Shown here piece by piece: positions 440 to 23,548 of a stretch of 46,198 bases of DNA. Position 1 is the first letter of the stretch. Each line of letters opens with the position of its first letter. The position numbers and the translations under genes are program-made. Source of the stretch: Xanthomonas axonopodis (GTDB taxonomy: Bacteria; Pseudomonadota; Gammaproteobacteria; Xanthomonadales; Xanthomonadaceae); NCBI RefSeq assembly GCF_001304695.1, contig NZ_JFAQ01000013.1:1-46198 (forward strand). Direction: 5' to 3'. The notes beneath the pieces were generated by a model. It did no database searches, had not been told where the DNA came from, and saw only the letters and a list, made by a program, of their open reading frames with translations.

Positions 440-2161
440 TTAGTGTTGATAGTTGAAAGCGCCGCTGCAGATACCCGGCACGACGATCTTCATCGGGCTG
501 GATTTCAATCGATCGCTGGGCGCGTACAGTTTGAACGGTGCGCCAACTTTGTCCGAACCTGCCTGGCGTTCTGGAATGGCGAGGATGCCTCGGCCGATGA
601 TCGTACCCTGTTCGTCCAAGAGGTACAGCGCGTTCAGGCCATCTCCAAGGTAGGTGTCGACTAGGCCGCCCTGCAGACGCGACCATCCGTCCGACTGCGG
701 CAGCGCTATAGTTGCCGGTGGAACCACCCCGCATCCCTTGGCGGGCGTTGCCACATAGGCATGCCCGATGCTTTCCGATGCCCCCCTGAGCCAAGGACTA
801 GCGAAAATGGAGAGGTTCTGCGCTGAGGCCTCACGGGCAATCTCAAGCGCACGAGTGCTGTCTGGGTAGATCCAGAGAATCTGTTCGTCATCCCGTGCGC
901 CCATCTCCAGTGCCAGCGCTGCAGTGGTCTTCTCGAGATCGGTAAGTGGGTTGTGCTTCATCGCCTGCCATTGCAAGGGCAGGAACGCCAAAGGAATGAG
1001 CAGTAGCAGGCCTATGGCCTGGCCGCGTGCCCAGGTGAACCTGGATGACAAGCGGGCAACGCCCAGGATCATCACGCATGCGATGACCAGCAGCGCCGGT
1101 GTGGTGTAACGGCTGGCAACAGCGCTTTCCAAACCGAATCGAATGCGGCCAACTGCCACTGCAAGCGCAGAGGCAACGAGGTAGGCCACGAACAGCGCTA
1201 GCGCGAGTTCCAAGTCGACCGTTAAGCGTTTGCGCAGCAAGGCCGTACCTGCCAAATAGCTCGCCAGAATCGCAATCATCATGCCGCAAGCAACGGCCAC
1301 GTAAAGATTGGGCGTAACCCCGCCAATGGCATGCGCAAATGGGCTACCAAGATAAGCAAATAAGAACCACATTACACCGCGTGGGGATTCGCGCAGCCCA
1401 TAGAAAAACGAGTCATGACCGCCGGGCGAGGCATATCCACTAAAGTAAAGCGTAGTGACAACTATGGCAATCAGCAGTACCGAAACGATCCGTCTGATAC
1501 TTTGGCGGCCGAGCACACAGCCGATTACCAGTAGCCACGTTGCGAGCACGCCATTGGCCATACTGCCTGCGGACACCACAGCCAATGCAACCGCAACAGC
1601 GAGCCAGGCGCGGTGATGCTTGCCATTTTGGTTGGACTGCCACAATGATAATAGGCTGGCCAACGGCAGCAGTTGCGCGAGGAAGAACTGGCTCTGAAAG
1701 CCCCAGGTAAGATTGTTTTCCTGGGTCCACAGCAGCGTCAGGCTAAGAACAACTAATGCTACTACTACCATGCATGGGGGGGCGTCTGGGATAATGCGCA
1801 GAGAACACCATGCTAGTAAGCTAAAGGTGAAGGCTGCCAGCGCATAATTCATAATGAGCAGGAATACCGCGTTTCCATCGAAATACCTGACATCGATAAA
1901 GAAGAGAATCCTGGCAAGGATAATGCGGTGCTCGTTGTGCTGTGCCCACCATGCCGAAATATCGGTCTGCTGGTGCATATAGAAGCCTAGTGTGCCATCC
2001 CACATATCCCAGAAGGGCACCGGGCTATAGCCACGCACCCCACCAACAATAGCCAGCAACGCATACAACAGTGTTAAAATTAACCCGATCAAAACAAAAG
2101 GTTGCTTTGTCAGGGGGCGCAGTCCCCCAGGCTGGCCACGGGTGGGCGAAACAGAGGTCAT
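440..2161 (-). CDS. Large multi-pass membrane protein, GT-C-like (putative polyprenyl-phosphate sugar transferase)
   Basis: A 573-residue integral membrane protein with a short cytoplasmic N-terminus, a first membrane segment near residues 22-43, about ten further hydrophobic segments and a soluble C-terminal tail of about 150 residues. The first external loop carries an acidic motif (FWDMWDG, about residues 50-56) and AQHNEHR further on. An acidic pair in this loop is the usual catalytic signature of GT-C glycosyltransferases that take sugars from polyprenyl phosphates. No named family is recognised with certainty. Its ATG overlaps the GtrA stop (ATGA), so the two are probably translationally coupled. 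As the last gene of a pentose-donor operon it is a candidate periplasmic pentosyltransferase. O-antigen modification is the most likely role, but this is inference. Confidence 0.75.
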   Translation of the reverse strand: MTSVSPTRGQPGGLRPLTKQPFVLIGLILTLLYALLAIVGGVRGYSPVPFWDMWDGTLGFYMHQQTDISAWWAQHNEHRIILARILFFIDVRYFDGNAVFLLIMNYALAAFTFSLLAWCSLRIIPDAPPCMVVVALVVLSLTLLWTQENNLTWGFQSQFFLAQLLPLASLLSLWQSNQNGKHHRAWLAVAVALAVVSAGSMANGVLATWLLVIGCVLGRQSIRRIVSVLLIAIVVTTLYFSGYASPGGHDSFFYGLRESPRGVMWFLFAYLGSPFAHAIGGVTPNLYVAVACGMMIAILASYLAGTALLRKRLTVDLELALALFVAYLVASALAVAVGRIRFGLESAVASRYTTPALLVIACVMILGVARLSSRFTWARGQAIGLLLLIPLAFLPLQWQAMKHNPLTDLEKTTAALALEMGARDDEQILWIYPDSTRALEIAREASAQNLSIFASPWLRGASESIGHAYVATPAKGCGVVPPATIALPQSDGWSRLQGGLVDTYLGDGLNALYLLDEQGTIIGRGILAIPERQAGSDKVGAPFKLYAPSDRLKSSPMKIVVPGICSGAFNYQH

Positions 2162-2568
2162 TTGTGATACTCCCCGGATTTACTGAATGTAAGATGCTTG
2201 TGTCCAAAGTAACTCGCAATAGCAGGCGCAATTATGCCGAGGGCGTGTGCGAATGTTTCGGGATAGAAAATCAGACCTATCCAGAGGAAAACGTAGTGGC
2301 TGAGAACAAGGCTAATAACAAGAGTCTGTAGTAAGGCCAGCGCGTTCACTGCAACGAACCAAAATATTTGCTTGGCAAGCTGCTTATTCGCATCTTTGAA
2401 AACATAGGAGCGGTTGAGAAGAAAAGCAGTGACCATGCCGACCAAATAAGCCAAGACAATCGCGGGTACATACCCAATGAATTGGTTGAAGGCGATGCGG
2501 GAACTGAAGTTCGCCACTGCGGCGACTCCGCTAGCTGCAACGAACAGGACGAAACGGCGCTCGATCAT
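2158..2568 (-). CDS. GtrA-family membrane protein (putative flippase for polyprenyl-phosphate sugar)
   Basis: A 136-residue protein of the normal GtrA size, with four hydrophobic segments and the typical opening FVLFVAASGVAAVANFSSRI followed by NRSYVFKD and the C-terminal YFGHKHLTFSK. GtrA proteins are thought to move undecaprenyl-phosphate-linked sugars across the inner membrane for serotype-converting transferases or for arabinan and teichoic-acid decoration. Both ends overlap neighbours by ATGA: the ATG with the upstream 631-residue membrane protein, the stop with the downstream 573-residue one. This placement between two large membrane proteins supports a flippase-transferase unit. Local base composition is low for this genome (82 of 180 bases G or C in 2161-2340), which suggests horizontal acquisition. 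Confidence 0.85.
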   Translation of the reverse strand: MIERRFVLFVAASGVAAVANFSSRIAFNQFIGYVPAIVLAYLVGMVTAFLLNRSYVFKDANKQLAKQIFWFVAVNALALLQTLVISLVLSHYVFLWIGLIFYPETFAHALGIIAPAIASYFGHKHLTFSKSGEYHK

Positions 2569-4460
2569 TGTTGATCACGCTCGTGATTGGGACTAGTCAT
2601 CGAGGTGATTACCCTATGCTGGGGGGGCCTTTCTGAAGTGGAAGGAAGATCCTGGTAGGTCAACTTATTATCGAATAGGCTGTTACGTACAAGTTGGCGA
2701 CACTGCTCAGCCGTAAGCGGTGCATGCCAGAGGTACGCCATCTGGCCGGTCCAATGCACTGCCGGGCCTTTATCGGTTTGGCCCGATGTGCAGCGCTTGA
2801 CTTCTTCACGCCAGTCAAGTGGCGCATGTGTACGGTAACCATGCTGTAAAGTTTGCTGAAGCGGAAATAGCAACAGAAGCACGAAGATCAGTCGCGCGGG
2901 ACCACGCGCCTCGCTGGCTATATGAATTAGAATCCAAGCGAGGAAGATATAGGGATAGAAAAAATAGCGCGGCCCTCCGGTGAATGGATCTAGTAGATCG
3001 ATGGGGACGCGCGCAGCCGCCGCCGTAACAGAAAGGACGAAGCACGCAATCAGGGTAACCAGCACCCCATCGCTATTGCGTCGCTGAGCCCAGACGGCCA
3101 CCAATATGACGAGTATCAATGCGAGTCCGAGACCGGCAGCAAGTGCGGGTTGTGCCGCATTGGGCTGCCGGAACAGGAAGTGACCAACGAATCGCTCCAG
3201 CAATGCCGAGACGCCCGGAGCAGAAAGACGCTCTTGTGAGGCGACCGGATTGAGAACAACCAGCTTGGCCTGGACAGCGCCGATCGCTCCGGCCGTTAGC
3301 AACATCCACCACTCTTCGCGCTGACGAAGAATGATTGCGCGCACGCAGTATAGCGGCGCCATCATCACGACCAATGGAGACGACAACCCCCCGAGCAGCA
3401 GCATCGGAAAACGCCACTGCAATCCTGGGGCGCGCCGCTCGTCCCAGAACACTGGAATCACCACTAAGAATGCGCCCCACCACAATGCATAAGCCGAGGT
3501 CGAAAAAACCTCTGCATCCGTCGGCACTGCCAGTACCGCAAGTGCGCATGCCCAAGGCGCTCGTAGGCGAGTAGGTAACAGCGCCAGCGCGACCATAACG
3601 GCCATAGTCATCAGTGCTGCTAGTGACAGGCTAATTTCAGGCAGCCATCGGAACGACAGCGTGACCGAAATTGAATTGATCAGCTTATTGGGAATCAGGA
3701 TGTAGCCGGCGACGGGATGCACTAGCGTGCCCCATCCGTACTGTAGAAAATCCGGGAGAAGCTCCTTTCCGTCTTCCACCCAGACGTAAGGGTTAGTCCA
3801 CTGCGAGGGACGGCGCAGCACCAGCGCAAGCAGTGTTGCGGCAGCAATGCTCAGGCCGATCCAGATCTGCTGGTGGGCTTCGCGCTTAGCCTCGACCGGT
3901 ACGGTTGTCCCGATCTCCTGTCTCAGCCAGGGGTACAGGACTGCCAAGAGGACTAAGCCGATGCTGACCGGAATCCATCCACCATGGTCAGACACAATGC
4001 CCAGCCCGATCCAGCCGAAACCTTCCTGGGTCTGATCACGTACGATAAGGCGGCTATCCTGCGTTTGCAGCGCTGGTGGAATGTCGACGAGCCAGCGCAC
4101 CCAGCGGTCACCCGCACGGGGTAGCGGCACTACGGCTTGTGTGCCATCTGCACCGACCAGTTTTGCACTGATACCGGGTGCGTCTCCATAACCTGCAACC
4201 TCCACGGTCACGGATGAATTTCCGGCGGGAATTGGTTGCAACACCAGATCGGCAATGTCGGCGTTCTGGAAGTTGCAGAAAGTAATTACATGCGAGCCTG
4301 ACGGCGTAGCTTGTCTCAGGAACGGCGAAAGAGTCTGGGAGCATCCACCGCTTATCCGTCCCTGGTATTGGCGACTGGTCAAACCTAATACAGCAACAAT
4401 AATAGCGGCCAGCAACAGCATTATGCGAAGCACCAGTGCTCGTTGCAGGATCCAACTCAT
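2565..4460 (-). CDS. Large membrane protein with N-terminal periplasmic domain (putative GT-C-type transferase)
   Basis: A 631-residue membrane protein. The ATG at 4460 (MSWILQRALV) is chosen because the longer reading frame to 4529 would run into the preceding FAD-protein gene. After one membrane segment (about residues 10-28) come roughly 130 residues of soluble, beta-rich, external sequence. Many membrane segments follow, then a soluble C-terminal tail rich in charged and polar residues. A loop after the second group of segments holds WVEDGKELLPDF, whose acidic residues recall GT-C active-site loops. I do not recognise a named family. The gene stop overlaps the GtrA ATG, and the gene starts 25 bases after the FAD protein, so it is part of the operon. 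It could transfer a polyprenyl-linked pentose or act in export of the product. Confidence 0.7.
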   Translation of the reverse strand: MSWILQRALVLRIMLLLAAIIVAVLGLTSRQYQGRISGGCSQTLSPFLRQATPSGSHVITFCNFQNADIADLVLQPIPAGNSSVTVEVAGYGDAPGISAKLVGADGTQAVVPLPRAGDRWVRWLVDIPPALQTQDSRLIVRDQTQEGFGWIGLGIVSDHGGWIPVSIGLVLLAVLYPWLRQEIGTTVPVEAKREAHQQIWIGLSIAAATLLALVLRRPSQWTNPYVWVEDGKELLPDFLQYGWGTLVHPVAGYILIPNKLINSISVTLSFRWLPEISLSLAALMTMAVMVALALLPTRLRAPWACALAVLAVPTDAEVFSTSAYALWWGAFLVVIPVFWDERRAPGLQWRFPMLLLGGLSSPLVVMMAPLYCVRAIILRQREEWWMLLTAGAIGAVQAKLVVLNPVASQERLSAPGVSALLERFVGHFLFRQPNAAQPALAAGLGLALILVILVAVWAQRRNSDGVLVTLIACFVLSVTAAAARVPIDLLDPFTGGPRYFFYPYIFLAWILIHIASEARGPARLIFVLLLLFPLQQTLQHGYRTHAPLDWREEVKRCTSGQTDKGPAVHWTGQMAYLWHAPLTAEQCRQLVRNSLFDNKLTYQDLPSTSERPPQHRVITSMTSPNHERDQQ

Positions 4461-4485
4461 TGGGGGGCGTTGCACGGTCGCGCGA

Positions 4486-5778
4486 TTATCGGGTGGCAAG
4501 ATCAGCCAGCGACGCGCCCAAGGCAACACTCTCGTTGATTGAACGATCCTCTGGATAGTAATACGCTGTATCAGCCATAAAGAAGCCTTCCAGCGGCGTC
4601 TTCATCGCCGGCAGCATGTCCTGAAACCCTGGGGGGCAGATAGTCTGCGCAAATTCATAACGGTGGCAGTGCGTTGCCAAGACCCACTCTGATTTGAATG
4701 CGGGGTTGATTCTAGGTAGATAGCTGATTACTTCATCGATCAGTTGCTGATTGCTCCATTGCCACTTCGGGTGGGTTTTGGGCATGTAGTAGGGCGCGTA
4801 CAAGATCTTTTGCGTTGGATCCTTGCCCGGGTTGAGATTGCTGTATTCGATGACGCCAGGAATAGCAATCCCGTCATCGCTGATATTCACCCAGAAGTTT
4901 TCGCTGATCGGCTGACTAAGCTTGAGAATGACGCATGCGACCGGAATGTTCTCAATTCGGCGTATGGAATCAGCGAATGCCTTAGGCAATTCCGGAACCA
5001 TCGCCGGCACGTACTGAATCGGTGCGGTTGAGATCACCGCATCGTATGAATGGAATTGATTGCCCGCGCGAATGCCCGTGACCTTGCCGGCTTCTGAAAC
5101 CACTTCATCGATCGGCTGGCTGAGCAAAATCCGGCCGCCGCGACGCTGGATCTCGGCCACCATCGCATCGAGCAGAATCGCCGAGCCGCCCTCCAGATAA
5201 CCCAGGCTCTCGTTGAACAGATTGCGCCGGGAAAGTGCGATGCGTTTGATGCGCGTGCCAATCCACGATGCCGACAAATCGTTGGCGTACTCGAAGAACT
5301 TCAGTCCGAACGCCTTCTCCCACATGACTTTATAGGCTTTCTTGCCGATCCAGCCTGTGATCCAGTCGCGTGCGTTCTCTTTGTCAAGCGCGGACCAGTC
5401 GGAAATGCCTTTGGTGTGCATCACGTGCAGCGCATAGCGCAGCTTGCTGATCGGGCCCAAATGAGGAAAGCTGAGCAGGGCGAATGGCGAGCCCCATTTG
5501 TACAGTCGGCCATCGTGGAAATAGCCCATTTTGGTGTCGGTCCACTTCAGTTTGTCGGCCATGCCAAGGCGGTCGAGCAATTTGAACAGTGGATCATCGG
5601 TCTTGCAGATGAAATGGTAATAGCGTTCGATGGAAAGGCCTTCGAAGTCGAAAGCTGCTGACATGCCGCCGATACGGTCGTCGCGCTCATAGATATCGAC
5701 CGCGTGACCACGGTCCAGAAGTTCGAGGGCGGCCATCAGGCCCATAGGGCCACTACCGATGATTGAATAATTGCTCAT
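4486..5778 (-). CDS. FAD-dependent oxidoreductase, protoporphyrinogen-oxidase / UDP-galactopyranose-mutase-like
   Basis: A 430-residue soluble flavoprotein. It opens with a Rossmann FAD motif (IIGSGPMGLMAALELLDRG, residues 5-23) ending in the acidic YERDD. IGGMSAAF follows, the GG-doublet sequence typical of amine-oxidase and UDP-galactopyranose-mutase-like enzymes, and a C-terminal FAD contact region lies around MADTAYYYPEDRSINE. Such enzymes occur in many glycan clusters, usually without a proven reaction. In a pentose-donor operon, a ring-contracting mutase or a sugar oxidation are both possible. The gene is intact and lies 40 bases from the epimerase gene and 25 bases from the next membrane protein. 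The family assignment is firm, the substrate unknown. Confidence 0.85.
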   Translation of the reverse strand: MSNYSIIGSGPMGLMAALELLDRGHAVDIYERDDRIGGMSAAFDFEGLSIERYYHFICKTDDPLFKLLDRLGMADKLKWTDTKMGYFHDGRLYKWGSPFALLSFPHLGPISKLRYALHVMHTKGISDWSALDKENARDWITGWIGKKAYKVMWEKAFGLKFFEYANDLSASWIGTRIKRIALSRRNLFNESLGYLEGGSAILLDAMVAEIQRRGGRILLSQPIDEVVSEAGKVTGIRAGNQFHSYDAVISTAPIQYVPAMVPELPKAFADSIRRIENIPVACVILKLSQPISENFWVNISDDGIAIPGVIEYSNLNPGKDPTQKILYAPYYMPKTHPKWQWSNQQLIDEVISYLPRINPAFKSEWVLATHCHRYEFAQTICPPGFQDMLPAMKTPLEGFFMADTAYYYPEDRSINESVALGASLADLATR

Positions 5779-5818
5779 GTCTACCTTGGATATGATGGAT
5801 GACAGCCTGGGTGGGGCG

Positions 5819-6763
5819 TCAACGCTTGAGGACGATGTGACTGTAGCGCGGGTCGCAGTAGCTTTCGCGGATGGCTTCTTCGAACGGAGTCTGGGTCACG
5901 CCGAAAATCGCCTGTGTATCTACGCCTTTGAAGTCATCGCCTGCTGAGAGTGCCTTGAGTTGATCGGCGGTGAAGGGCGGCTTGCTGCTGAACAGGCTGT
6001 ACACCCGGAGCAAGAAGGCAAAGAAGCCAATCGGGATATGCACGATCACAGTGCGCAGTTGTTTTGCGCGCTTGATGGTGCGAATGATATCAACGTAATC
6101 CACGCGCGTAGCGCCGACGATATCGTAGATGTCGCCCGCAGGTTCGCGCTCTATGCACTGCACGATGCAGCGACAAAAATCGCGCTCGTACAACGGTTGG
6201 CGCATGAACTTGCCGTCGCCGGGAATCGGGAATACCGGAGTGCGAGCCATGAAGCGCGACAACCATCCCAGGTGCTTGGGGTCGAACCAGCCGAACATCA
6301 ACGTCGGGCGCAACACGCAGTGAGGAATCCCGCTGTTGCGGACTAGCGCCTCCTGTAGCTTCTTGGTCTCCGTGTAGTCATCGGTTGCAACTGAATTCAC
6401 GACCGAAGAACTGATGTGCACCATGTAGGGGATCTGATGATCCATGCAAGCGTTCAGTACGTTTTCGGTGGCCTGCAGGTTGTTGCGGTCGAACAACGTG
6501 CGGAACTTACCGGTGATCTGTGCATGCAGTTGTACTACCAGGCGAGCGCCTGCGAACGCTTCGCTCCAAGCACCAGGTTCCGCGAGGTCGGCCAATATCG
6601 TCTTTACGTCCGGGTGCAGTTTGCGCAAGATCTCGAGGTTGTGCTCGTGCTTGTCGATGGCGATCAGCTGCGTATATCCCTGCTGCTTCATCTCGACGAT
6701 GAGGTTCTGTCCCACCAGGCCTGCGGCACCGGTCAACACGATCTTGTCACTTTTCTGTGCCAT
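5819..6763 (-). CDS. NAD-dependent epimerase/dehydratase (extended SDR)
   Basis: A 314-residue extended short-chain dehydrogenase. The start at 6763 (MAQKSDKIVLTGAAG) puts the nucleotide-binding glycine motif GAAGLVG at residues 11-17, where it normally lies; an in-frame start at 6814 would add an unlikely leader. Other family features are a serine in VHISSS near residue 110 and the catalytic YTETK (YxxxK) about 16 residues later. These enzymes oxidise and re-reduce a sugar carbon using tightly bound NAD, most often at C4 of a nucleotide sugar. This copy could act on a nucleotide sugar or on the lipid-linked pentose made by the operon. It lies between the methyltransferase and FAD-protein genes. 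The specific substrate cannot be read from the sequence. Confidence 0.88.
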   Translation of the reverse strand: MAQKSDKIVLTGAAGLVGQNLIVEMKQQGYTQLIAIDKHEHNLEILRKLHPDVKTILADLAEPGAWSEAFAGARLVVQLHAQITGKFRTLFDRNNLQATENVLNACMDHQIPYMVHISSSVVNSVATDDYTETKKLQEALVRNSGIPHCVLRPTLMFGWFDPKHLGWLSRFMARTPVFPIPGDGKFMRQPLYERDFCRCIVQCIEREPAGDIYDIVGATRVDYVDIIRTIKRAKQLRTVIVHIPIGFFAFLLRVYSLFSSKPPFTADQLKALSAGDDFKGVDTQAIFGVTQTPFEEAIRESYCDPRYSHIVLKR

Positions 6764-6794
6764 GGATGGACTCTGAAACGTATGGATGAATGGA

Positions 6795-7466
6795 TCAGTC
6801 GCGCTTGTAGGCAACGACCAGCGCTTGCTTGCCCAAGAGGTGCCAGGCGAGCGGAATGCGCAGGTACAGCGATACCAGCCACGGCGCCTGCGGTAATCGG
6901 CTCTTGGTGGTATAGGGCAGGAATTTGGGGATCACCACCTGCGGCTCCAATCCCGCCATCAGTACTCCCTCGACGAGGCTACGGTCGCTTAGCGACGTGT
7001 GGTGGTCGAAGTAATCCCAATACTCGTCATATAGGAAGCGAATGTTGGGTTGCAGGATGATGACCCTTCCGCCCGGCTTAAGCATGCGCGCGCTTTCCCG
7101 CAGCGTTTGCAATACGAGATCTTTGGTTGGCAGGTGCTCAAGAAAGTTACTCATGAATACCGCATCTACGCTGGCGCTAGGAATCGAGCTGACCGCAATG
7201 CATGACTCATTGATCACGCGAATACCGTCGGCGGCGAACTTGCGCACGTCGGGGTTGAGGTCGACGGCAATCTTGTGCGCGGCTGGAATGTTGTTGATGA
7301 ACTCGCAATATCCCGCTCCGATGTCGACCACAGTCTCATTGGGTTCAACGAACCGACTGAAATACTGCGTGCACAGTACCTGCCAGATCCGGTTCTTGTT
7401 GGCGAGTTCTTCCTTCGGGAAACGGTGTTGATAGAGCACGTCGAGATCGTGATCGATATCTGGCAT
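6795..7466 (-). CDS. Class I SAM-dependent methyltransferase
   Basis: A 223-residue soluble methyltransferase. The ATG at 7466 (MPDIDHDLDV) is preceded by GAGGAA at good spacing; the open frame extends further upstream only as an overlap with the reductase gene. Motif I, the S-adenosylmethionine loop, is VVDIGAGYCEFI (about residues 60-71). It is followed by an acidic VDLNPD strand and FLEHL, in the usual Methyltransf_11 order. The C-terminus contains a hydrophobic stretch near SRLPQAPWLVSLYLRIPLAW that may touch the membrane. Within this operon, O-methylation of a surface sugar, for example a terminal cap on an O-chain, is the simplest role. The acceptor is unknown. Confidence 0.85.
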   Translation of the reverse strand: MPDIDHDLDVLYQHRFPKEELANKNRIWQVLCTQYFSRFVEPNETVVDIGAGYCEFINNIPAAHKIAVDLNPDVRKFAADGIRVINESCIAVSSIPSASVDAVFMSNFLEHLPTKDLVLQTLRESARMLKPGGRVIILQPNIRFLYDEYWDYFDHHTSLSDRSLVEGVLMAGLEPQVVIPKFLPYTTKSRLPQAPWLVSLYLRIPLAWHLLGKQALVVAYKRD

Positions 7467-7495
7467 CTCAGCACTTCCTCTGTGGATGGGGTGGT

Positions 7496-8224
7496 TTATA
7501 GCGAGATGCGACGAAAAATGAATTCCGGGATGTTCTTGATCACCAGCATGATTGCCCACCAGAAACTGGGCAGGTAGGCCACAGCGCGACGCTTGTCCAC
7601 TGCGCTGAGGATCCCCTTGGCAATCTGGTCCGGCTTTGCCCACAGTGCGCCCTTCTTGAAGGCTGCGGTCATGGGGGTGTCGACGAAGCCCGGCTTGATC
7701 GTGAGCACGTTGATGCCTTGCGGGCGCAGGCGCTGTCCCAGGCCGCTCAAGTAGGCGGTCACAGCGGCCTTGGCACTGCCATAGAGGTAGTTGCTGGCTC
7801 GGCCGCGATCTCCAGCCACTGAAGAAATGACTGCCAGCGTGGCGCCGGACGTCAGTCGCGGCACAATCGCTGCGCACAGCGCAATTGTGGAGGTGCCGTT
7901 GGTGGCGAATTCGCGCAGCGACAGTTCGACCGATGCGTCACATGCAGCCTGATCCGGCAGCGTGCCATGTGCGATCAATACGACATCGACACCGCCCAAG
8001 GCAGCCCAGGCTGCATCCAGAACTTCGCCATGATGCGCATTGTCGTTGACATCCAGCACGCCGATGCTGCTTCGCGCGCCGCGGGTGGTGAGGTCGGCCG
8101 CAATTGTTTCCAGGCGCGCGGCCTGGCGGCCGAGCAGGTGGATGGCCGCACCGCGGGCGGCGTAGCGTCGGGCGGTTGCTTCGGCAATGGCCGAGGTGGC
8201 CCCGATAATAAGGACGCGTTGCAT
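7496..8224 (-). CDS. DprE2-like SDR reductase (polyprenyl-phospho-2-ketopentose reductase)
   Basis: A 242-residue classical short-chain dehydrogenase. The nucleotide-binding motif is GATSAIAEA (about residues 7-15), as in DprE2 rather than the canonical TGxxxGIG. The catalytic serine lies in VISSVAG and the YxxxK pair in YLYGSAKAA, followed by the PGFVDTPM loop. In mycobacteria DprE2 reduces the 2-keto intermediate produced by DprE1, completing conversion of decaprenyl-phospho-ribose to the arabinose form. The gene starts two bases after the DprE1-like stop codon, and these genes are adjacent in mycobacteria too, which makes the pairing convincing. The C-terminus is hydrophobic (FWWAIMLVIKNIPEFI), fitting a lipid-linked substrate. 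The stereochemical outcome is not proven by sequence. Confidence 0.85.
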   Translation of the reverse strand: MQRVLIIGATSAIAEATARRYAARGAAIHLLGRQAARLETIAADLTTRGARSSIGVLDVNDNAHHGEVLDAAWAALGGVDVVLIAHGTLPDQAACDASVELSLREFATNGTSTIALCAAIVPRLTSGATLAVISSVAGDRGRASNYLYGSAKAAVTAYLSGLGQRLRPQGINVLTIKPGFVDTPMTAAFKKGALWAKPDQIAKGILSAVDKRRAVAYLPSFWWAIMLVIKNIPEFIFRRISL

Positions 8225-8226
8225 GT

Positions 8227-9528
8227 CTACTCCGTGACCCGGCGCCAGAAGCCGGAAGAAAAACGTGGATCGAGATAGTTGCCGAACTCGCGCCAGCGGC
8301 CATAGGCACGCTGAAACGACTGTGCTGTCATACGTGCGTCCTTGGCAGGGTACAGAGCGCCGCCTGCCTCGTCGACGATGCGGTCCAGTCGCTCAAGCAG
8401 GCGGAAGACGCCAGGACCGGTATTGGGAAAATCCAATGCCAAGGTCGTGCCTGGCCTTGGGAAAGACAGCATGCCAATGGAAGGTGTGTTGCCGAATTCC
8501 TTCAACACCGCCAGGAACGAGCCGCTGCCGCTGCGCGCGATCTCTGCAAGCAGCGCGTCCACTGCGTCCCGCGCGGTTGCGGGCGGCATCACACATTGAT
8601 ACTGGAGAAAGCCGGAGGGGCCGTACATGCGGTTCCAGTCACGGATGCCGTCAAGCGGGTAAAAGAACGGCAAGAGATGGCTGACGAAGCGTTTGCGCGG
8701 AGCGGGCTGGCGCCAGTAGTAGAGCGCGTTGAAAGGCCGCAGGGAGAACGTGTTCACCAACGAAATCGGTGGAGTGACAGGCATGGATAAACCTGCGCCT
8801 GGCGGTTTCGGTCGCTCTTGCGCAAGCCCGGTGCAGTGATCTGCGCGGGTAAAGTGCCCGCGCCCGCGCGCCTTGCCGCTTGCCAGACAGTCGATCCACG
8901 CCACACTGTACTCGTGGCTTTCGGCCGCGGCCGCCGACAACGCAAAGAACTCGTCAAGCGAGCCGAAGCGAATGTTTTCTGCTTCCAGCGTGGAGCTGCC
9001 GACCCGACGCAGCTGAATTTCCGCCCAGGTGATCAGGCCGGTCAGCCCGAGTCCACCCACTGTGGCTGCGAACCAGCGATCGGCGTGATCCGGAGTGCAC
9101 ACTCGCCGCTCGCCGTCGCTACGCAGCAGCTCGAATGCGCGCACATGGTGGCCAAAATTGCCGGTCCGATGGTGGTTCTTGCCATGCACGTCGTTGGCAA
9201 TGGCGCCGGCAACGGTGACGTAGCGCGTGCCGGGCGTCACCGGCAGAAACCAGCCTTGCGGCAATACCAGCTCGATGATCTCGTTAAGAGTGACACCTGC
9301 CTCGCAGCGCAGCACGCCACTGGCAGGATCAAAGGCGATGAATCGATCAAGCCCGCGTGCGCACAGCAGTGCGCCATCCGGATTCAGGCAACTATCGCCA
9401 TAGCTGCGCCCGTTACCACGCGGCAGCGCGAGGCCGTCGAATGCGGGCAGATCCGTTGCACGATCGTTGATCGGTAGCAGCGTCTGCTGCGCGCTGGGAT
9501 ACCGCCCCCAGGATTGCCCCGCGGCCAT
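8227..9528 (-). CDS. DprE1-like FAD-dependent polyprenyl-phospho-ribose 2'-oxidase
   Basis: A 433-residue FAD_binding_4 oxidoreductase. The ATG at 9528 overlaps the upstream stop as TGATG, which supports this start over one at 9558. FAD-binding elements are PRGNGRSYGDS (about residues 37-47) and PGTRYVTVAGAIANDVHGKNHH (about residues 97-118); the latter resembles the same region of mycobacterial DprE1 very closely. The C-terminal catalytic segment YPAKDAR keeps the lysine (about residue 396) equivalent to Lys418 of the Mycobacterium tuberculosis enzyme. The position matching the benzothiazinone-target cysteine (Cys387) is alanine here, in TLALDFP (about residue 364). DprE1 oxidises C2 of decaprenyl-phospho-ribose; the same step on this organism's polyprenyl carrier is the likely reaction. 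Confidence 0.9.
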   Translation of the reverse strand: MAAGQSWGRYPSAQQTLLPINDRATDLPAFDGLALPRGNGRSYGDSCLNPDGALLCARGLDRFIAFDPASGVLRCEAGVTLNEIIELVLPQGWFLPVTPGTRYVTVAGAIANDVHGKNHHRTGNFGHHVRAFELLRSDGERRVCTPDHADRWFAATVGGLGLTGLITWAEIQLRRVGSSTLEAENIRFGSLDEFFALSAAAAESHEYSVAWIDCLASGKARGRGHFTRADHCTGLAQERPKPPGAGLSMPVTPPISLVNTFSLRPFNALYYWRQPAPRKRFVSHLLPFFYPLDGIRDWNRMYGPSGFLQYQCVMPPATARDAVDALLAEIARSGSGSFLAVLKEFGNTPSIGMLSFPRPGTTLALDFPNTGPGVFRLLERLDRIVDEAGGALYPAKDARMTAQSFQRAYGRWREFGNYLDPRFSSGFWRRVTE

Positions 9529-10973
9529 CAGATGGCGCTCAGGGCGAATAACCCGCACAGCACGACAACGATCTGACTCACACGGTCGGTTGCAGCGAAT
9601 ACGATCGGGTCGTCATGCATCTCTCCGCGATGCGCAATGATCCAGACCCTGCTCACCCAATACAGCAACACTGGGCACACCAGCCAGAGCAGCTTGGGAT
9701 TGCGGTACAGCTCCACACTCTCGGGGCTGTTGATGTACAGCGCCATCACCATTACCGCGATGTAGCCGGCCGCTGCGCCCATGGATTGCAGCAGCGAGAG
9801 ATCCTCCACCGAATAGGCTCGGCCACTGGCCCTGGTCTTGCCGCTGCTCAACATGGCATGTAGTTCCGTGTAGCGCTTGAGCAGCGCGAGCGACAGGAAC
9901 ATGAACATCGAAAATGCCAACAGCCAGAACGACAACTCGATGCCGATCGCCACGGCGCCGCCGATGATGCGTACGGTGTAGAGCGCTGCGAGCAGCACCA
10001 CGTCGATCATCACAATGCGCTTCAAGCGTAGCGAATACGCCAAGGTCATGATGTAGTAGGCAAGCAAGACCAGGGTGAATTCAATATTGCATGCCAGCGA
10101 CAGCAGGAGCCCGGCAATGGTCAGCGCGGGGGCGACCAGCAGCCCATGCAAAAGCGGGAGCCGACCTGCCGCGAACGGGCGCTTGCGTTTGCGTGGATGC
10201 TGACGGTCAGGCGTCAAATCCAGCAGATCGTTGAGCACATAGACGCCGGAAGCGCATAACCCAAATGCGACCAGCGCAATCGTGGATTGCAGGACCGATT
10301 CCAGATCCAGGAATCGGTGCGCGGTCAGCAGCGGAACGAACACGAGCAGATTCTTCAGCCATTGGTGCAGGCGCAACGCTTTCAGCCATGCACGGGCGCG
10401 CGACGGGGCAGGCCAATGCGCATGCACGGTCGTCCGTTGCGCCGCTGCCTTTGCCAGTGCGGTGCCGTTGTTGACGACCCAGGCGCCACCGGCCTTGTCC
10501 CAGACGTGCAAATCCACGCTGCCGTTGCCGGCGTAATCGAAGTTGCCCTGACCAAACGCGTCGACCAGGACATCTGCCTTGTTGCGACCAGACAGATTGC
10601 GCTTGCCATCGCTGGCAATGACCTGCTCGAAGAGGCCTAGATGCTCTGCAATAGGCTGCACCAGGAGGGCGTCGGAGGCGGTGCACAACACGCGCGGGCG
10701 TTGCGTTGTGGTGCGCAACAGCTCTAGCACCTGGTGGTTGTAGGGCAGGGTCTCTGCAGGCATGACGACGCGGGAGGCAAGTTCGCGCTTCAGTGCGGCC
10801 TTCCCACGCAACAGCCACAGTGGCAGCAAGAACACGTACAGCGGGTTACGCGCCAGCAACGCCAGCACCGACTCATAGAGAATGTCCGAATTCAAAAGCG
10901 TGCCATCCAGATCCACGCACAAGGCGCGTCCCGACACAACTGGACGAATAGAGTGGATAGGGGGGGCGGACAT
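9528..10973 (-). CDS. HAD phosphatase-UbiA prenyltransferase fusion (putative polyprenyl-phosphate phosphoribosyltransferase)
   Basis: A 481-residue two-domain protein. Residues 1-190 are a HAD hydrolase: motif I DLDGT at 21-25, a later CTAS, and YAGNGSVD where motif IV normally reads GDxxxD. From about residue 195 it is a UbiA-family membrane protein with about nine segments and the metal/pyrophosphate motif NDLLDLTPDRQHPRKRKRP at about 248-266. That motif (NDxxDxxxDxxHPxKxxRP) is the form found in the mycobacterial transferase Rv3806c, which uses PRPP. The UbiA half probably puts 5-phosphoribose on a polyprenyl phosphate. The HAD half probably removes the 5-phosphate, a step done by a separate protein in mycobacteria. 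The stop overlaps the DprE1-like start (TGATG). Confidence 0.88.
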   Translation of the reverse strand: MSAPPIHSIRPVVSGRALCVDLDGTLLNSDILYESVLALLARNPLYVFLLPLWLLRGKAALKRELASRVVMPAETLPYNHQVLELLRTTTQRPRVLCTASDALLVQPIAEHLGLFEQVIASDGKRNLSGRNKADVLVDAFGQGNFDYAGNGSVDLHVWDKAGGAWVVNNGTALAKAAAQRTTVHAHWPAPSRARAWLKALRLHQWLKNLLVFVPLLTAHRFLDLESVLQSTIALVAFGLCASGVYVLNDLLDLTPDRQHPRKRKRPFAAGRLPLLHGLLVAPALTIAGLLLSLACNIEFTLVLLAYYIMTLAYSLRLKRIVMIDVVLLAALYTVRIIGGAVAIGIELSFWLLAFSMFMFLSLALLKRYTELHAMLSSGKTRASGRAYSVEDLSLLQSMGAAAGYIAVMVMALYINSPESVELYRNPKLLWLVCPVLLYWVSRVWIIAHRGEMHDDPIVFAATDRVSQIVVVLCGLFALSAI

Positions 10974-11018
10974 CGATTGCCTGGCGATCCATTGCGGGGC
11001 GCCGATTATACCTGTCGT

Positions 11019-12010
11019 TCACCGCGCGCTCTTGCGGATAGCGAATTCTGCAGCGAGCATGGACGCCGCCCCGACGAGGATGGCGTACCAAAGCGTCACC
11101 AGGCGCGCCGCGACAGCGACCGCAATGGCGTCTGCAGTAGAAATTCCAAGCCGATCGAGCATCAGGACGATGGCCAGTTCGGTCGAGCCGACGCCACCGG
11201 GCACAAACGACAGTGCGCCGATCAGCATCGCAAGCGGGTAAATACCGAGCGCGACAATGGGGTCCAGTTGCAGGCCCATGCCGACGCAAAGGCTCACGAA
11301 CACCGCTGATGTCAGTCCCCAGGCGATGAACCCGGCAAGCATGCTTTGCGCGAACGCAGGCAGATCCAGGCAGATACGCAATTCCAGCGCTGCCGCAAGG
11401 AAGAAATGCGTCAATCGCCGCAGCCAGCGGCCGGGAAGGTGCGCGGTCATGCCTTTCAGGTTGTCCAACAACGCGTGCCAGGCGGCTGCGCCGAACAGCA
11501 CACAGACAAATCCCAGCACGATTGCAGCTAGCGCACCCAAGGTGGGGAATATCGACGCGGCCAGCAGGGACGGCGACAGGATGACCAGCAGGTCGGATGC
11601 GCGCTCGAAGACGAAGACACCCAATGTGCGCTGGGCCGGAATGCCGATCCGCGCGAAGTAGCGAATCCGCATCAGTTCGCCTGCCTTGCCAGGCGTAGCG
11701 GTCAGTGCGAAGCCCGCCAAATAGCCAGCCAGGCCAGGTAGTAACTGGTACGTGATGCCCCTTGCGGCGGAGGAGCCAGTGCCACCGCCAGTACCGAAAC
11801 AGATACGTGATGGTGACGGGCACGATGGCGAGCGCCATCTGCTGCCAGACCTCGCTCGCCCAGCCGTGAGAAGGTCCCGTTTCCGTGGTCCAGCCAGACC
11901 AAGACGGCGATGTATCCGGCGCACAGCAGGAAAACGAAGCCGACCAGATAATCCAGACGGTGCCGCGATGTCGCGGCACCGTTGATGCGAGAAGACGAAG
12001 GCGAATCCAT
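11019..12010 (-). pseudogene. Flippase-like (LPG synthase TM / YbhN-type) membrane protein, two frameshifts
   Basis: The remains of an approximately 330-residue membrane protein of the lysylphosphatidylglycerol synthase TM / AglD-YbhN type. The N-terminus starts at the ATG at 12010 ([13 protein letters not shown], then a membrane segment). The sequence continues in a second frame (EVWQQMALAIVPVTITYLFRYWRWHW) and then in a third (LLPGLAGYLAGFALTATPGKAGELMR) to the stop at 11019. The third part holds the family hallmark TPGKAGELMR and SFVPGGVGSTE. The first shift fits a 4-base tandem duplication (gcga twice) at 11852-11859; the second fits a single extra base near 11735. The start is 15 bases past the etfA stop, and the end is 45 bases before the HAD-UbiA gene. 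Sequencing error cannot be excluded for either lesion. Confidence 0.8.
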
Positions 12011-12025
12011 TGCAGCAGACGGGCC

Positions 12026-12973
12026 TCAGCCCAACGCAGCCTCCAACTCCGGCAGCAGCGTAAACAGATCCCCCACCAGCCCGATATCGGCAATCTCGAA
12101 GATCGGCGATTCCGGGTCCTTGTTGATCGCCACGATCGTACCGGCGTCCTTGATGCCGGTCAGATGCTGGATGGCGCCGCTGATGCCGATGGCCACGTAC
12201 AACTCCGGGGCGATGATCTTGCCGGTCTGACCGACCTGCAGCTCGTTGGGCACATAGCCTGCGTCCACTGCCGCGCGTGAAGCACCGACCGCGGCGCCGA
12301 GTTTGTCGGCCAGCCTATAGATGTGCTTGAAGTTCTCCGCCGAGCCGACGCCGCGGCCGCCGGAGACCACACGCTTGGCGCTCTGCAGGTCTGGGCGGTC
12401 GGAGTTGCCTGCAGCCAGGTCGATGAAGCGGGTGTGGGTCGGCAGTGCGACTTTGATGCTGACGGACTCGACAGCTGCGCTTCCACCGCTAGCCGCCTCC
12501 GGCCACGAGGCACTGCGCACTGTAGCAACCACGATCTGGTCGGCCGGGGCTTTCACAGTAATGATGGCGTTGCCGGCGTAGATCGGGCGCTTGAAGGTGT
12601 AGGCATCTTCGACCGCCATCAGGTCGGAGATCTGATTGACGCCGAGCAGTGCAGCCACCACTGGCATCAGATCCTTGCCGAAGGTGGTGGAGGGGCCGAG
12701 CACATGGGTATAACTCTGGCCGGCCAGCTGGGCGATCTGCGGCCCCAGCACCTGGGCGATGGCGTGTTCGTTGGCGGCGTTGGCCACGGTCAGCACGCGG
12801 GCGACGCCGGCCAGCTGTGCGGCCTGCGCTGCAACGGCTGCAGGATCGGCCGCCGCCAGCACGACCACGTCGATCGACTCGGCCGAGACGGCCAGCGCAG
12901 CGCTCAGGGTCTTGGCGGTGGCCGCATTGAGCTGGCCGTTGAGGTGTTCGGCGACGACAAGAATTTTGGCCAT
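12026..12973 (-). CDS. etfA: Electron transfer flavoprotein, alpha subunit
   Basis: A 315-residue ETF alpha subunit of normal length. The C-terminal FAD domain is clear: SGGRGVGS (about residues 203-210), the [25 protein letters not shown] segment, and the conserved [20 protein letters not shown] and [13 protein letters not shown]. With the beta subunit it forms the soluble heterodimer that carries electrons from acyl-CoA and other dehydrogenases to ETF-ubiquinone oxidoreductase, which is encoded at 25616-27265. Its ATG overlaps the etfB stop (TAATG), so the two subunits are coupled. In xanthomonads this pair marks the edge of the LPS locus. Confidence 0.97.
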
Positions 12974-13719
12974 TACAGCAACCCCTTCTGCTTGAGTGCG
13001 GCCACCAGCCCGGCGGCGTCCTTGACCATCACCCCGCGGCTGCGTTTGGCCGGCGCCGCGTAGTGGGTAGTGGTGAGACTGTCGTGCGATTCAACGCCCA
13101 GGTCGGCGAAGGCCAGCGTTTCCATCGGCTTGCTCTTGGCCTTCATGATGTCCGGCAGCTTGATGAAGCGCGGCTCGTTCAGGCGTAGGTCGGTGGTGAT
13201 CACCGCCGGCAGCTCCACCTCCAGCGTTTCCAGGCCGGCATCGACCTCGCGGGTCACCGTGGCCTTGCCGTCGGCAACAACGAGCTTGCCGGCGAAGGTC
13301 GCCTGCGGCCGGCCCCACAACGTGGCCAGCATCTGGCCGGTCTGATTGGCATCGTCGTCGATCGCCTGTTTGCCGAGGATGACCAGATCCGGCTGTTCCT
13401 TCTCGACCAATTTGAGCAGCGCGCGTGCGGCGGTCAGCGGCTGAACGGCCGCATCGGTCACCACATGGATTGCGCGATTGGCGCCCATGGCCAAGCCGTT
13501 GCGCAGGTGCGCAGCCGTATCGGCCGGCGCCAGGGTGGCGACCACGACGTCCGTGGCGATGCCGGCATCGCGCAGGCGCAATGCTTCTTCCAGGGCGATT
13601 TCGTCGAACGGATTAGGCGAGAGCTTGACGCCCTCGGTCACCACGCCGGAGCCATCCGGCTTGACCTGAATGCGGACGTTGTAGTCCACCACGCGCTTGT
13701 AGGCGACGAGGATTTTCAT
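12973..13719 (-). CDS. etfB: Electron transfer flavoprotein, beta subunit
   Basis: A 248-residue ETF beta subunit, typical in length. It begins MKILVAYKRVVDYNVRIQVKP and contains the NPFDEIALEEALRLRD region and the family signature VTREVDAGLETLEVELPAVIT (about residues 154-174). The beta subunit binds AMP structurally and carries the recognition loop for partner dehydrogenases. It is the first gene of the minus-strand etfB-etfA pair and is transcribed away from rmlB across a 223-base gap. The frame is intact. Confidence 0.97.
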   Translation of the reverse strand: MKILVAYKRVVDYNVRIQVKPDGSGVVTEGVKLSPNPFDEIALEEALRLRDAGIATDVVVATLAPADTAAHLRNGLAMGANRAIHVVTDAAVQPLTAARALLKLVEKEQPDLVILGKQAIDDDANQTGQMLATLWGRPQATFAGKLVVADGKATVTREVDAGLETLEVELPAVITTDLRLNEPRFIKLPDIMKAKSKPMETLAFADLGVESHDSLTTTHYAAPAKRSRGVMVKDAAGLVAALKQKGLL

Positions 13720-13823
13720 CGTGTACGAGATCCTTCAGCTATTGCGGGAAGGCCCGGCCGCGGCGGCAGGCTCGGGAGTGGGGGCATTCTAACCGGGCGT
13801 AGCCAACCATGCGATGGCGTATG

Positions 13824-13842
13824 GATGCTGCGATGCAGCATC
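13824..13842. promoter_or_regulatory. Inverted repeat in the etfB-rmlB divergent intergenic region
   Basis: In the 223-base gap between the divergent etfB and rmlB genes lies an 8-base perfect inverted repeat, gatgctgc-gat-gcagcatc, with a 3-base centre. It is about 100 bases from each start codon. It could be an operator or a small hairpin in a leader RNA. No clear -35/-10 pair could be assigned with confidence on either side. Confidence 0.3.
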
Positions 13843-13942
13843 TTGTTGTCCTGAATGGGCAATGCTTAGGCCCGGTATTGCTCCAACCGTATATCCTGTG
13901 GGGTTGACGCAGCGCGGTCCGCGCGCGACCAGGAGATCAGCA

Positions 13943-14998
13943 GTGGCAACTTGGCTAGTAACCGGTGGTGCCGGCTTCATCGGTGGCAACTTTGTTCTTG
14001 AAGCAGTGGCTCGCGGAGTGCGCGTGGTCAATCTCGACGCGCTGACCTATGCGGGAAATCTGAACACATTGGCTCCTCTAGAGGGCAACCCGGACCATGT
14101 TTTCGTCAAGGGCGACATTGGGGACGGCGCGTTGGTATCCAGTCTGCTGCACAAACACCAGCCCGATGCGGTGCTGAATTTCGCGGCCGAGAGCCATGTG
14201 GATCGCTCGATCGAGGGCCCGGGCGCATTCATCCAGACCAATGTGGTTGGCACTCTGGCCCTGCTTGAAGCGGTCCGTGACCACTGGAAGGCGCTTTCGA
14301 AGGAGCGCCAGGATGCGTTGCGGTTTCTGCACGTGTCCACCGATGAGGTCTACGGCACGTTGGGTGAGACCGGCAAGTTCACCGAAACCACGCCGTATGC
14401 GCCCAACTCGCCGTACTCCGCGTCGAAAGCCGCTTCCGATCACCTGGTACGCGCGTTTCACCACACCTACGGTCTGCCGGTGCTGACCACCAATTGTTCG
14501 AACAATTATGGTCCTTACCACTTTCCAGAAAAGCTCATTCCGCTGGTAATCGCCAAGGCGCTGGCTGGCGAGCCACTGCCGGTCTACGGCGATGGCAAGC
14601 AGGTGCGCGACTGGCTGTTCGTCAGCGATCACTGCGAAGCGATTCGTACCGTGCTGGCGAAGGGCAAGGTCGGCGAGACGTACAATGTTGGCGGCAATTC
14701 CGAGCGGCAAAACATCGAGGTCGTACAGGCGATCTGCGCACTGTTGGATCAGCACCGTCCGCGCGACGATGGCAAGCCACGTGCGAGCCAGATCACTTAT
14801 GTGACGGATCGCCCGGGCCATGATCGCCGTTACGCGATCGACGCCTCCAAGCTGAAGAACGAACTGGGCTGGGAGCCCGCCTACACCTTCGAGCAAGGCA
14901 TCGCGCAGACGGTGCAGTGGTATTTGACCAACCAGGCGTGGGTGCAGGGTGTGCTGGACGGCAGTTACCGCTTGGAACGGATCGGCGCCTCGGCGTAA
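13943..14998 (+). CDS. rmlB: dTDP-glucose 4,6-dehydratase
   Basis: A 351-residue dehydratase for the second step to dTDP-L-rhamnose. The GTG at 13943 is chosen because AGGAGA lies 7 bases upstream and because it places the NAD motif [10 protein letters not shown] at residues 5-14; longer in-frame ATG starts have no leader that fits the family. The active-site elements are STDEVYG (threonine, aspartate and glutamate of the dehydration step) and YSASKAA (YxxxK). It is the first of four plus-strand genes in the order rmlB-rmlA-rmlC-rmlD. Confidence 0.96.
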
Positions 14999-15053
14999 CG
15001 CGCCCCCGCAAGAGCCCGCGCGGTCGTGCGCAGGCCTCACAAGGAACTATCTC

Positions 15054-15941
15054 ATGACACAACGTAAAGGCATCATTTTGGCGGGTGGATCGGGAACGCG
15101 CCTGTATCCGATCACCAAGGGCGTCAGCAAGCAGCTGCTGCCGGTGTATGACAAGCCGATGATTTACTACCCGCTGAGCGTCCTGATGCTGGCAGGTATT
15201 CGCGATATTTTGATCATCAACACGCCGCATGAGCAGGCGCTGTTTCAGTCTTTGCTCGGCGACGGCGCGCAATGGGGAATCAATATTCAGTACGCCATGC
15301 AGCCCAGCCCGGATGGGCTGGCGCAGGCGTATCTGATCGGCCGCGACTTCGTCGATGGCAAGCCGAGTTGCCTGGTGTTGGGCGACAATATTTTTCATGG
15401 TCACGGTTTGACCGAAACGCTACGTCGCGCAGACGCGCGCGAGCAGGGTGCGACGGTGTTTGGTTATTGGGTCAACGATCCTGAGCGCTATGGCGTGGCC
15501 GAATTCGATCAGCAGGGCAAGGTCATCGATATTGCCGAAAAGCCTGCCAAGCCCCGCTCCAACTATGCGGTCACCGGCCTGTATTTCTACGATGGAAAAG
15601 CCAGCGATTATGCGGCTGCCTTGAAACCCTCCCCGCGTGGCGAGCTGGAGATTACCGATCTCAATCGCTGCTATCTCGATGCTGGTGACCTGCATCTTGA
15701 GCCGCTGGGACGCGGGTATGCATGGCTGGACACCGGAACGCACCAGTCGCTGCATGAAGCGGCCAATTTCATCGAGACCATCCAGATGCGTCAGGGTCTG
15801 CAGGTGTGCTGCCCCGAAGAAATTGCATTCGGTCAGGGCTGGATCGATGCGGAACAACTGGAGCGGCTGGCCGCCCCATTGCTGAAAAACGACTATGGCA
15901 AGTATCTGCACGAATTGGCTGTGCGAGGAGTAGTACCGTGA
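15054..15941 (+). CDS. rmlA: Glucose-1-phosphate thymidylyltransferase
   Basis: A 295-residue nucleotidyltransferase that makes dTDP-glucose from dTTP and glucose-1-phosphate, the first committed step to dTDP-L-rhamnose. The ATG at 15054 follows AAGGAA. The signature [20 protein letters not shown] (about residues 8-27) and [18 protein letters not shown] are typical; later come the metal-binding LGDNIFHG and the sugar-contacting [10 protein letters not shown]. The stop overlaps the rmlC GTG start (GTGA), so the two are translationally coupled. Confidence 0.97.
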
Positions 15942-16495
15942 AAATCGTCGAAACCCGTTTACCAGGTTGTGTGGTCATCGAGCCGGCAGTGTTCGGCGAT
16001 GAACGCGGATATTTTTTTGAAACGTGGAATGCGGAGCGCTTCGGTCAGCATGGTCTGCCGACGAAATTCGTGCAAAGCAATGTGTCCACGTCGGCCAAAG
16101 GCGTGCTGCGCGGGCTGCATTACCAGTGGCCGCGTCCCCAGGGCAAGCTGGTCAGCGTGCTTGAGGGTGAGGTCTACGATGTGGCGGTCGATGTCCGTCA
16201 TGGCTCGCCCAACTTCGGGCGGTGGGCAGCAGTGATGTTGAGCGCGGAAAACAAAAAGCAGTTCTGGATTCCAGAAGGGTTTGCGCACGGCTTTGCAGTG
16301 CTGTCGGAGCGAGCGGTGTTCAGCTATCTGTGCACCGACGTCTACGTGAAGGAGGCCGATGCCGGCGTGCGCTGGGATGATGCGGCCATTGGCATCGATT
16401 GGCCGATCAGCAATCCCGTGCTTTCGGCCAAGGATGCCGCAGCGCCCTTCCTGGCGGATGTGCCGGGCGAGCGTCTGCCGGTCTTTGCGCCATGA
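15938..16495 (+). CDS. rmlC: dTDP-4-dehydrorhamnose 3,5-epimerase
   Basis: A 185-residue cupin epimerase for the third step to dTDP-L-rhamnose. The GTG at 15938 overlaps the rmlA stop and gives the normal N-terminus [11 protein letters not shown]. Family features are RGYFFETWN, the active-site block VLRGLHYQ with the catalytic histidine, [20 protein letters not shown], and IPEGFAHGF. The C-terminal part, with [19 protein letters not shown], is also conserved. The gene ends in an ATGA overlap with rmlD. Confidence 0.96.
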
Positions 16496-23518: not shown

Positions 23519-23548
23519 CACGCAAGGCGCCTCAAGGCGCCTTGCGTG
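23519..23548. terminator. Bidirectional terminator hairpin between lpsJ and the WbsX/RgpF gene
   Basis: A 13-base perfect stem with a 4-base loop, cacgcaaggcgcc-tcaa-ggcgccttgcgtg. It lies 45 bases after the lpsJ stop, and the stop codon of the convergent gene falls in its loop. It would fold in transcripts from both strands. No long U-tract is present. Confidence 0.6.

Follow-up and report, generated by a model that had tools for sequence, protein, structure and literature searches.

A xanthomonad operon that very probably makes a lipid-linked pentose, with a six-gene cassette proposed as a route to L-xylose

Which sugar is made by a Xanthomonas axonopodis operon whose first genes resemble those of the mycobacterial arabinose pathway? 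The operon in question comprises nine genes on the minus strand (10973-440) of contig NZ_JFAQ01000013.1 (assembly GCF_001304695.1), a stretch of 46,198 nucleotides, hereafter the window, which spans a complete contig in a draft assembly. A first-pass annotation had listed a UbiA protein, a DprE1-like flavin adenine dinucleotide (FAD) oxidase, a DprE2-like short-chain dehydrogenase/reductase (SDR), GtrA and two large membrane proteins, each of which is indeed an open frame at 440-10973, and had read them as making a pentose that is derived from phosphoribosyl pyrophosphate (PRPP), linked to a lipid, flipped and transferred to a surface glycan. This reading holds up, with the catalytic residues conserved and one membrane protein modelling as a glycosyltransferase of the C fold (GT-C), and we regard a lipid-linked pentose destined for a surface glycan as the very probable product of the operon. 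The list had omitted a methyltransferase, an extended SDR, an additional FAD protein and a HAD domain (Table 1). Since the extended SDR and the FAD protein are all-or-none partners in this operon type, the mycobacterial product D-arabinofuranose (D-Araf) would most simply be converted further, probably to L-xylopyranose (L-Xylp), rather than mark the end of the pathway. We propose, at a probability of roughly 0.55, that the operon product is L-xylopyranose linked to undecaprenyl phosphate (undP), which would be put on an O-antigen rhamnan after its export.

The joint occurrence of the extended SDR, the FAD protein and GtrA carries this proposal. Profile searches over the best 80 of 471 UbiA-relative loci (named records; 81 rows with the window) found all three genes in 35 loci, none in 45 and a partial set in no locus, and restricting the set to the 61 loci that extend 6.8 kb or more beyond UbiA left 34 with and 27 without. 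An earlier count with single-sequence thresholds had given two exceptions in 59 loci, and the profiles cleared both; the FAD gene is split in two pieces in the X. phaseoli locus (L036), and in L035 the SDR is frameshifted and read partly within one open reading frame (ORF) with the FAD protein. In 34 of the 35 loci that hold the trio, DprE1 and DprE2 are there as well, the exception being L074, and 31 of the 45 trio-less loci still have these two. On the best UbiA tree obtained by a quick method, from which 18 loci with less than 6.8 kb past UbiA were omitted (19 of the 80 are that short, and L077, which has the trio, was kept), the trio appears or disappears at least 9 times over the 63 rows judged, with 5 independent contrasts on well-supported branches. 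Therefore, the trio has been repeatedly gained or lost as a unit, and while the polyprenyl-phosphate-pentose core of the operon is already known, this all-or-none trio is what is new.

The same association is found in samples that were not selected through UbiA. In a set of 398 genomes from the phylum, 8 gave a match to the SDR profile, the window's own counted, all at 481 bits or more, and the FAD profile matched the identical 8, at 696 bits or more, plus one distant protein at 327 bits. Six of the seven SDR loci other than the window's hold UbiA, DprE1, DprE2, SDR, FAD protein and GtrA together, and the seventh genome has its set divided between two contigs, with the first three genes ending one and the last three beginning the other (L109, one of the six, and L064 of the 80 are a single locus). 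A search of 72,556 plasmid records found the SDR in seven and the FAD protein in the same seven plus one at 28.9% identity, and all seven SDR-bearing plasmids keep the order UbiA-DprE1-DprE2-SDR-FAD-GtrA. Their carriers are Burkholderia stagnalis, Agrobacterium salinitolerans, Rhizobium tumorigenes (two plasmids), Rhizobium rhododendri, Rhizobium sp. CB3090 and a Rhodobacteraceae bacterium; the A. salinitolerans cassette adjoins a rhamnan synthesis F gene and the R. tumorigenes cassettes adjoin pseudaminic acid genes. The six-gene cassette, its UbiA fused to a HAD domain, thus occurs in alpha-, beta- and gammaproteobacteria. A single SDR query gave no match in a phage collection, and the absence of the SDR from all 16 genomes of one genus weighs neither for nor against the predicted presence of the cassette in R. 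solanacearum. We consider it likely that SDR and FAD protein form one joint step after the C2 inversion.

The first enzymes of the operon can be placed by alignment. The UbiA gene has NDLLDLTPDRQHPRKRKRP, and its protein matches the mycobacterial DPPRS at E 1.7e-28 and scores 681 bits against NF006088. The UbiA motif that the annotation had pointed out is borne out, as N248, D249, D252, D256, H259, K262, R265 and P266 are kept in at least 95% of the 81 rows, window included. Its N-terminal HAD domain (residues 21-131) reaches 27.3 bits against the Pfam cut-off of 27 and carries the motif VDLDGT, in which D21 takes the position of the loop I nucleophile Asp. In the mycobacterial comparison, residues 44-431 (of 443) of the DprE1-like protein can be aligned with solved DprE1 (E 2.3e-79), and its score against NF053785 is 369 bits, under the model cut-off of 500; for the DprE2-like protein, the DprE2 model gives 169.5 bits (cut-off 250) and NF005489 gives 317 (cut-off 267). 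Their active-site positions are conserved; the scores below the NCBIfam equivalog cut-offs make both of them homologs rather than certified equivalogs. Where the DprE1-like protein has Ala374, mycobacterial DprE1 has in the alignment a Cys, which we take to be Cys387, the benzothiazinone target. The residues N247, D248, D251, D255, R366 and E369 of the polyprenyl-phosphate phosphoribosyltransferase of Kelly et al. (2024; PMC11127046) correspond, with an offset of one, to N248, D249, D252, D256, R367 and E370 here, conserved in at least 95% of the rows, so that each residue reported as mutated in the passages of that paper has a counterpart in the window protein; the R366A and E369A mutants are described there as having stayed active.

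Concerning the additional pair, the extended SDR has G12, G15 and G18 of the TGxxGxxG NAD motif, D37, S118-S120, Y130 and K134 invariant in 39 rows, and the Pfam Epimerase family was found in 32 of 32 cases; we propose that it is a C4-epimerase of undP-pentopyranose. The FAD protein is of the amine-oxidase/desaturase type, and its fold is common to oxidases, desaturases and UDP-galactopyranose mutase (UGM), so that the fold search does not separate a mutase from an oxidase; UGM was not among the 50 Foldseek matches listed and came tenth by VIA-align. We propose that it is a furanose-pyranose mutase. A distant FAD homolog (L129, genome G189) has an LPG_synthase_TM gene as a neighbour; UbiA was absent from the nine ORFs scanned there, and the homolog perhaps performs related chemistry on another lipid-linked sugar.

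L-xylose and D-arabinose are C4 epimers, and a route from one to the other can be proposed for the whole operon. PRPP would give undP-ribofuranose (undP-Ribf) as the first lipid-linked pentose, and the DprE1-like and DprE2-like proteins would, by homology, invert C2 to undP-D-Araf. The FAD enzyme may then open and reclose the ring in the manner of UGM, turning D-Araf into D-arabinopyranose (D-Arap), which the NAD-dependent extended SDR could invert at C4 to L-xylopyranose. O-methylation of the sugar may be the role of the methyltransferase, a gene that some loci have and others lack; GtrA would flip the lipid-linked product, and the GT-C proteins, the fold of one of which was modelled, would add it as a non-stoichiometric side branch to a rhamnan exported by Wzm/Wzt, the presumed acceptor. 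That the six-gene cassette is, in this manner, a biosynthetic route to L-xylose, lipid-carried and PRPP-derived, with ring expansion by a flavin mutase followed by C4 epimerisation, we hold to be an even bet. Partial L-xylose branches on L-rhamnose are described, in passages on their O-antigens, for two plant pathogens, Ralstonia and Xanthomonas, and the xylose of the R. solanacearum O-antigen is given as a pyranose of the L form (PMC10450222, in part). Among strains with a solved O-antigen structure, the R. solanacearum tomato strain of that paper and X. campestris pv. begoniae GSPB 525 have L-Xyl, and X. campestris pv. campestris B100 lacks it.

Several points weigh against L-xylopyranose as the product. 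The sequence of the FAD protein is desaturase-like, L074 has the trio without DprE1 and DprE2, the xylose of X. translucens is left unexplained, and no genome checked for the cassette is identified as that of a strain with proven L-xylose. On the B. stagnalis plasmid (L132), moreover, the cassette adjoins isocyanide synthase and methyltransferase genes, which hints at use on a small molecule.

Among the other sugars and roles that might be considered, the extended SDR could be a C3-epimerase, which together with DprE1/DprE2 would yield D-lyxofuranose, or D-xylofuranose (D-Xylf) and D-Araf in parallel, with the FAD protein as an accessory oxidase. According to passages of Kelly et al. (PMC11127046), ORF13 of Citrobacter youngae, a GalE-like SDR, alone converts undP-Ribf to Xylf, and multiple candidate epimerases are mentioned for Xanthomonas; however, the same passages place lyxofuranose in no solved structure, the R. 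solanacearum xylose has the other ring form and configuration, and the constant FAD partner would be left unexplained, and we therefore rate this explanation as unlikely. Rather less likely still is that the product is undP-D-Araf itself, as in mycobacteria and in Pseudomonas that arabinosylate pilins, with SDR and FAD protein serving another O-antigen step. UbiA, DprE1 and DprE2 would be enough for Araf, these two DprE genes persist in most module-less loci, and Kelly et al. tie DprE1/E2 to Araf glycans in the text available (PMC11127046). The trio, however, is never apart in the 80 loci and is linked to DprE1 and DprE2 in all but one of its loci there and, as one gene row, on all seven plasmids, and an unrelated role of SDR and FAD protein is therefore improbable. 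We also know of no Xanthomonas O-antigen that bears Araf. Lastly, the FAD enzyme might modify the carrier in its polyprenyl chain, in keeping with the isoprenoid substrates of its phytoene-desaturase relatives, leaving the SDR as the sole sugar enzyme of the pair; phytoene desaturase is the closest solved relative among the matches listed, HpnE and carotenoid desaturases are among its NCBIfam neighbours, and the distant homolog mentioned above adjoins a GT2 gene as well as the flippase-like one. Yet the FAD protein co-varies with SDR and GtrA and not with UbiA, which needs the same lipid, and this explanation appears very improbable.

As to the acceptor, upstream of the operon lie two genes that we take, from their sequences, to be etfA and etfB, followed by rmlB, rmlA, rmlC and rmlD on the opposite strand. 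Xanthomonad lipopolysaccharide (LPS) clusters are bounded by etfAB and metB according to a review (PMC8042644), and Wzt_C, the O-antigen exporter gene, lies 12.7-18.1 kb from the UbiA gene in all six relatives tested; in the window's own genome it is on a different contig from the operon. Pilin families gave no match among the 30 window ORFs scanned (E up to 0.001 or up to 1e-10). These observations agree with the annotation in favouring the O-antigen as the most likely recipient, and they argue against a pentose destined for a protein such as pilin or for a small molecule, for which the D-Araf modification of Pseudomonas pilins (mentioned in passages of PMC11127046) and the isocyanide synthase genes of B. 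stagnalis could be adduced and which we consider a very remote prospect. The operon's contig also codes for a WbsX-RgpF (rhamnan synthesis) protein (23532-25841), and a wxcX lead was dropped, as it proved to be a different gene, of the RgpF type.

The transfer step for L-xylopyranose would fall to the large membrane proteins, both of which match no family in the Pfam scan. Large membrane protein 2 models as a GT-C enzyme, with 30 of the top 32 fold-search rows GT-C by title plus two GPI-transamidase chains, and has a C-terminal beta-strand domain (478-571); large membrane protein 1, which begins with an additional region that its relatives lack, is a putative GT-C. GtrA and LPG_synthase_TM were the flippase-like families in the Pfam scan of the nine operon proteins and the open piece of the upstream gene, with no match to MATE, and that scan gave neither a GT2 (GtrB-type) protein nor a separate phosphatase family among the operon proteins. 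The upstream UPF0104/LPG_synthase_TM gene, which lies between etfA and UbiA, is broken up into three frames when set against an intact relative and is therefore probably not functional; the X. phaseoli copy is likewise split, at a different place. Of the 45 GtrA-less loci, 11 (L052, L055, L066, L067, L072, L073, L075, L080, L083, L088 and L089) have, no more than about 2.5 kb upstream of UbiA, a UPF0104 homolog that is a candidate undP-pentose flippase.

The gene spacing is operon-like. The annotation had called the genes of the core overlapping, which is so for UbiA and DprE1, whereas DprE1 and DprE2 are 2 bases apart, and the GtrA frame shares 4 bases with each large membrane gene. Because the window is an entire contig, the 3′ end of the operon stands 439 bases from the contig edge.

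Table 1. Features of the operon and of its upstream neighbourhood, with positions in the window.
Feature	Position	Strand	Basis or remark
HAD phosphatase fused to UbiA-type polyprenyl-phosphate phosphoribosyltransferase (PPPRS-PRP), 481 aa	9528..10973	-	Pfam, NCBIfam, alignment
DprE1-like FAD oxidase	8227..9528	-	ORF from 9558; likelier start, ATG at 9528
DprE2-like short-chain reductase, 242 aa	7496..8224	-	Pfam, NCBIfam, alignment
Class I methyltransferase, optional gene	6795..7466	-	Pfam scan; in 6 of 80 relatives' loci
Extended SDR, proposed C4-epimerase of undP-pentopyranose	5819..6763	-	motif, co-occurrence
FAD protein, phytoene desaturase/protoporphyrinogen oxidase/UGM fold, proposed furanose-pyranose mutase	4486..5778	-	fold search, co-occurrence
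Large membrane protein 1, putative GT-C	2565..4460	-	ORF opens at 4529, ATG at 4460 more likely
GtrA-type putative flippase	2158..2568	-	Pfam, co-occurrence
Large membrane protein 2, GT-C glycosyltransferase by model	440..2161	-	fold search
UPF0104/LPG_synthase_TM flippase-like gene, upstream of the operon	11019..12025	-	Pfam; over three frames
etfA, etfB (presumed), conserved border of xanthomonad LPS clusters	12026..13719	-	border in PMC8042644 (in part)
rmlB, rmlA, rmlC, rmlD, dTDP-L-rhamnose supply	13814..17391	+	

The distribution is patchy, as O-antigen genes show, with the SDR carried by 32 of 297 genomes in a sample of the window's family and the UbiA gene by 16 of 35 genomes of the genus. 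The window matches X. phaseoli DNA at 93.8% only from about 7512 to 13719, and X. pisi at 86.5% from about 4544 to 11986 and then at 90.3% to 13719. Similarity to X. phaseoli and X. vasicola drops abruptly at about 7.5 kb, where the DprE2-like gene ends, while that to X. pisi is maintained, and this junction is likely a recombination site. From this pattern, the genes from the methyltransferase onward have probably been exchanged as a block, as is expected for serotype genes.

If L-xylopyranose is indeed the product, the cassette supplies a pathway for the rare sugar L-xylose, of whose bacterial biosynthesis no account was found in the open-access literature searched, and ring-size change and C4 inversion would join the known chemistry on polyprenyl-phosphate sugars. 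L-xylose would become predictable from genome sequence, and homologs of DprE1, a tuberculosis drug target, would act in plant-associated Gram-negative bacteria. It would also explain extra genes of the kind that Kelly et al. saw in Xanthomonas. Passages of their paper (PMC11127046) mention 'more elaborate' Xanthomonas examples, and since the class was characterised there, the claim of an undescribed system was too strong; beyond those sentences the open-access literature gave no description of the operon, and their SI figure S12, a Xanthomonas example, may list the same genes.

Several known systems come close to the operon. In the three-component extracytoplasmic pentofuranose system of C. 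youngae O1/O2, as far as passages of Kelly et al. (PMC11127046) describe it, undP-ribofuranose for the side chains of the O-antigen is formed from PRPP by a fused HAD-UbiA protein, a MATE flippase and a GT-C transferase belong to the same system, and the pentose can be altered by an SDR; both systems share the fusion with counterparts of all tested residues, a nearby ABC-exported O-antigen, a GT-C transferase and auxiliary epimerases. However, the window operon has GtrA in place of the MATE flippase, and is therefore a variant and not a member of that system; DprE1/DprE2, the further SDR-FAD pair and the methyltransferase are its own, and it has two large membrane proteins, which may or may not be of family GT136, the family of the GT-C transferase in that system. 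With the mycobacterial decaprenyl-phospho-arabinose pathway it shares the PRPP-dependent UbiA transferase (Rv3806c in mycobacteria), the DprE1-like oxidase and the DprE2-like reductase, but its HAD domain is fused to UbiA where mycobacteria have the separate Rv3807c phosphatase, its DprE-like proteins differ in their equivalog scores and in the Ala at the DprE1 Cys position, and it continues with the SDR and the FAD protein, the latter nearer to phytoene desaturase and protoporphyrinogen oxidase than to UGM and with a polyprenyl-phosphate sugar as its proposed substrate. The Gtr systems (GtrA/GtrB/Gtr) of O-antigen glucosylation resemble it in a small GtrA-type flippase candidate and a GT-C transferase acting after export, whereas their donor is made from UDP-glucose by GtrB, and that of the window operon would be made from PRPP by UbiA.

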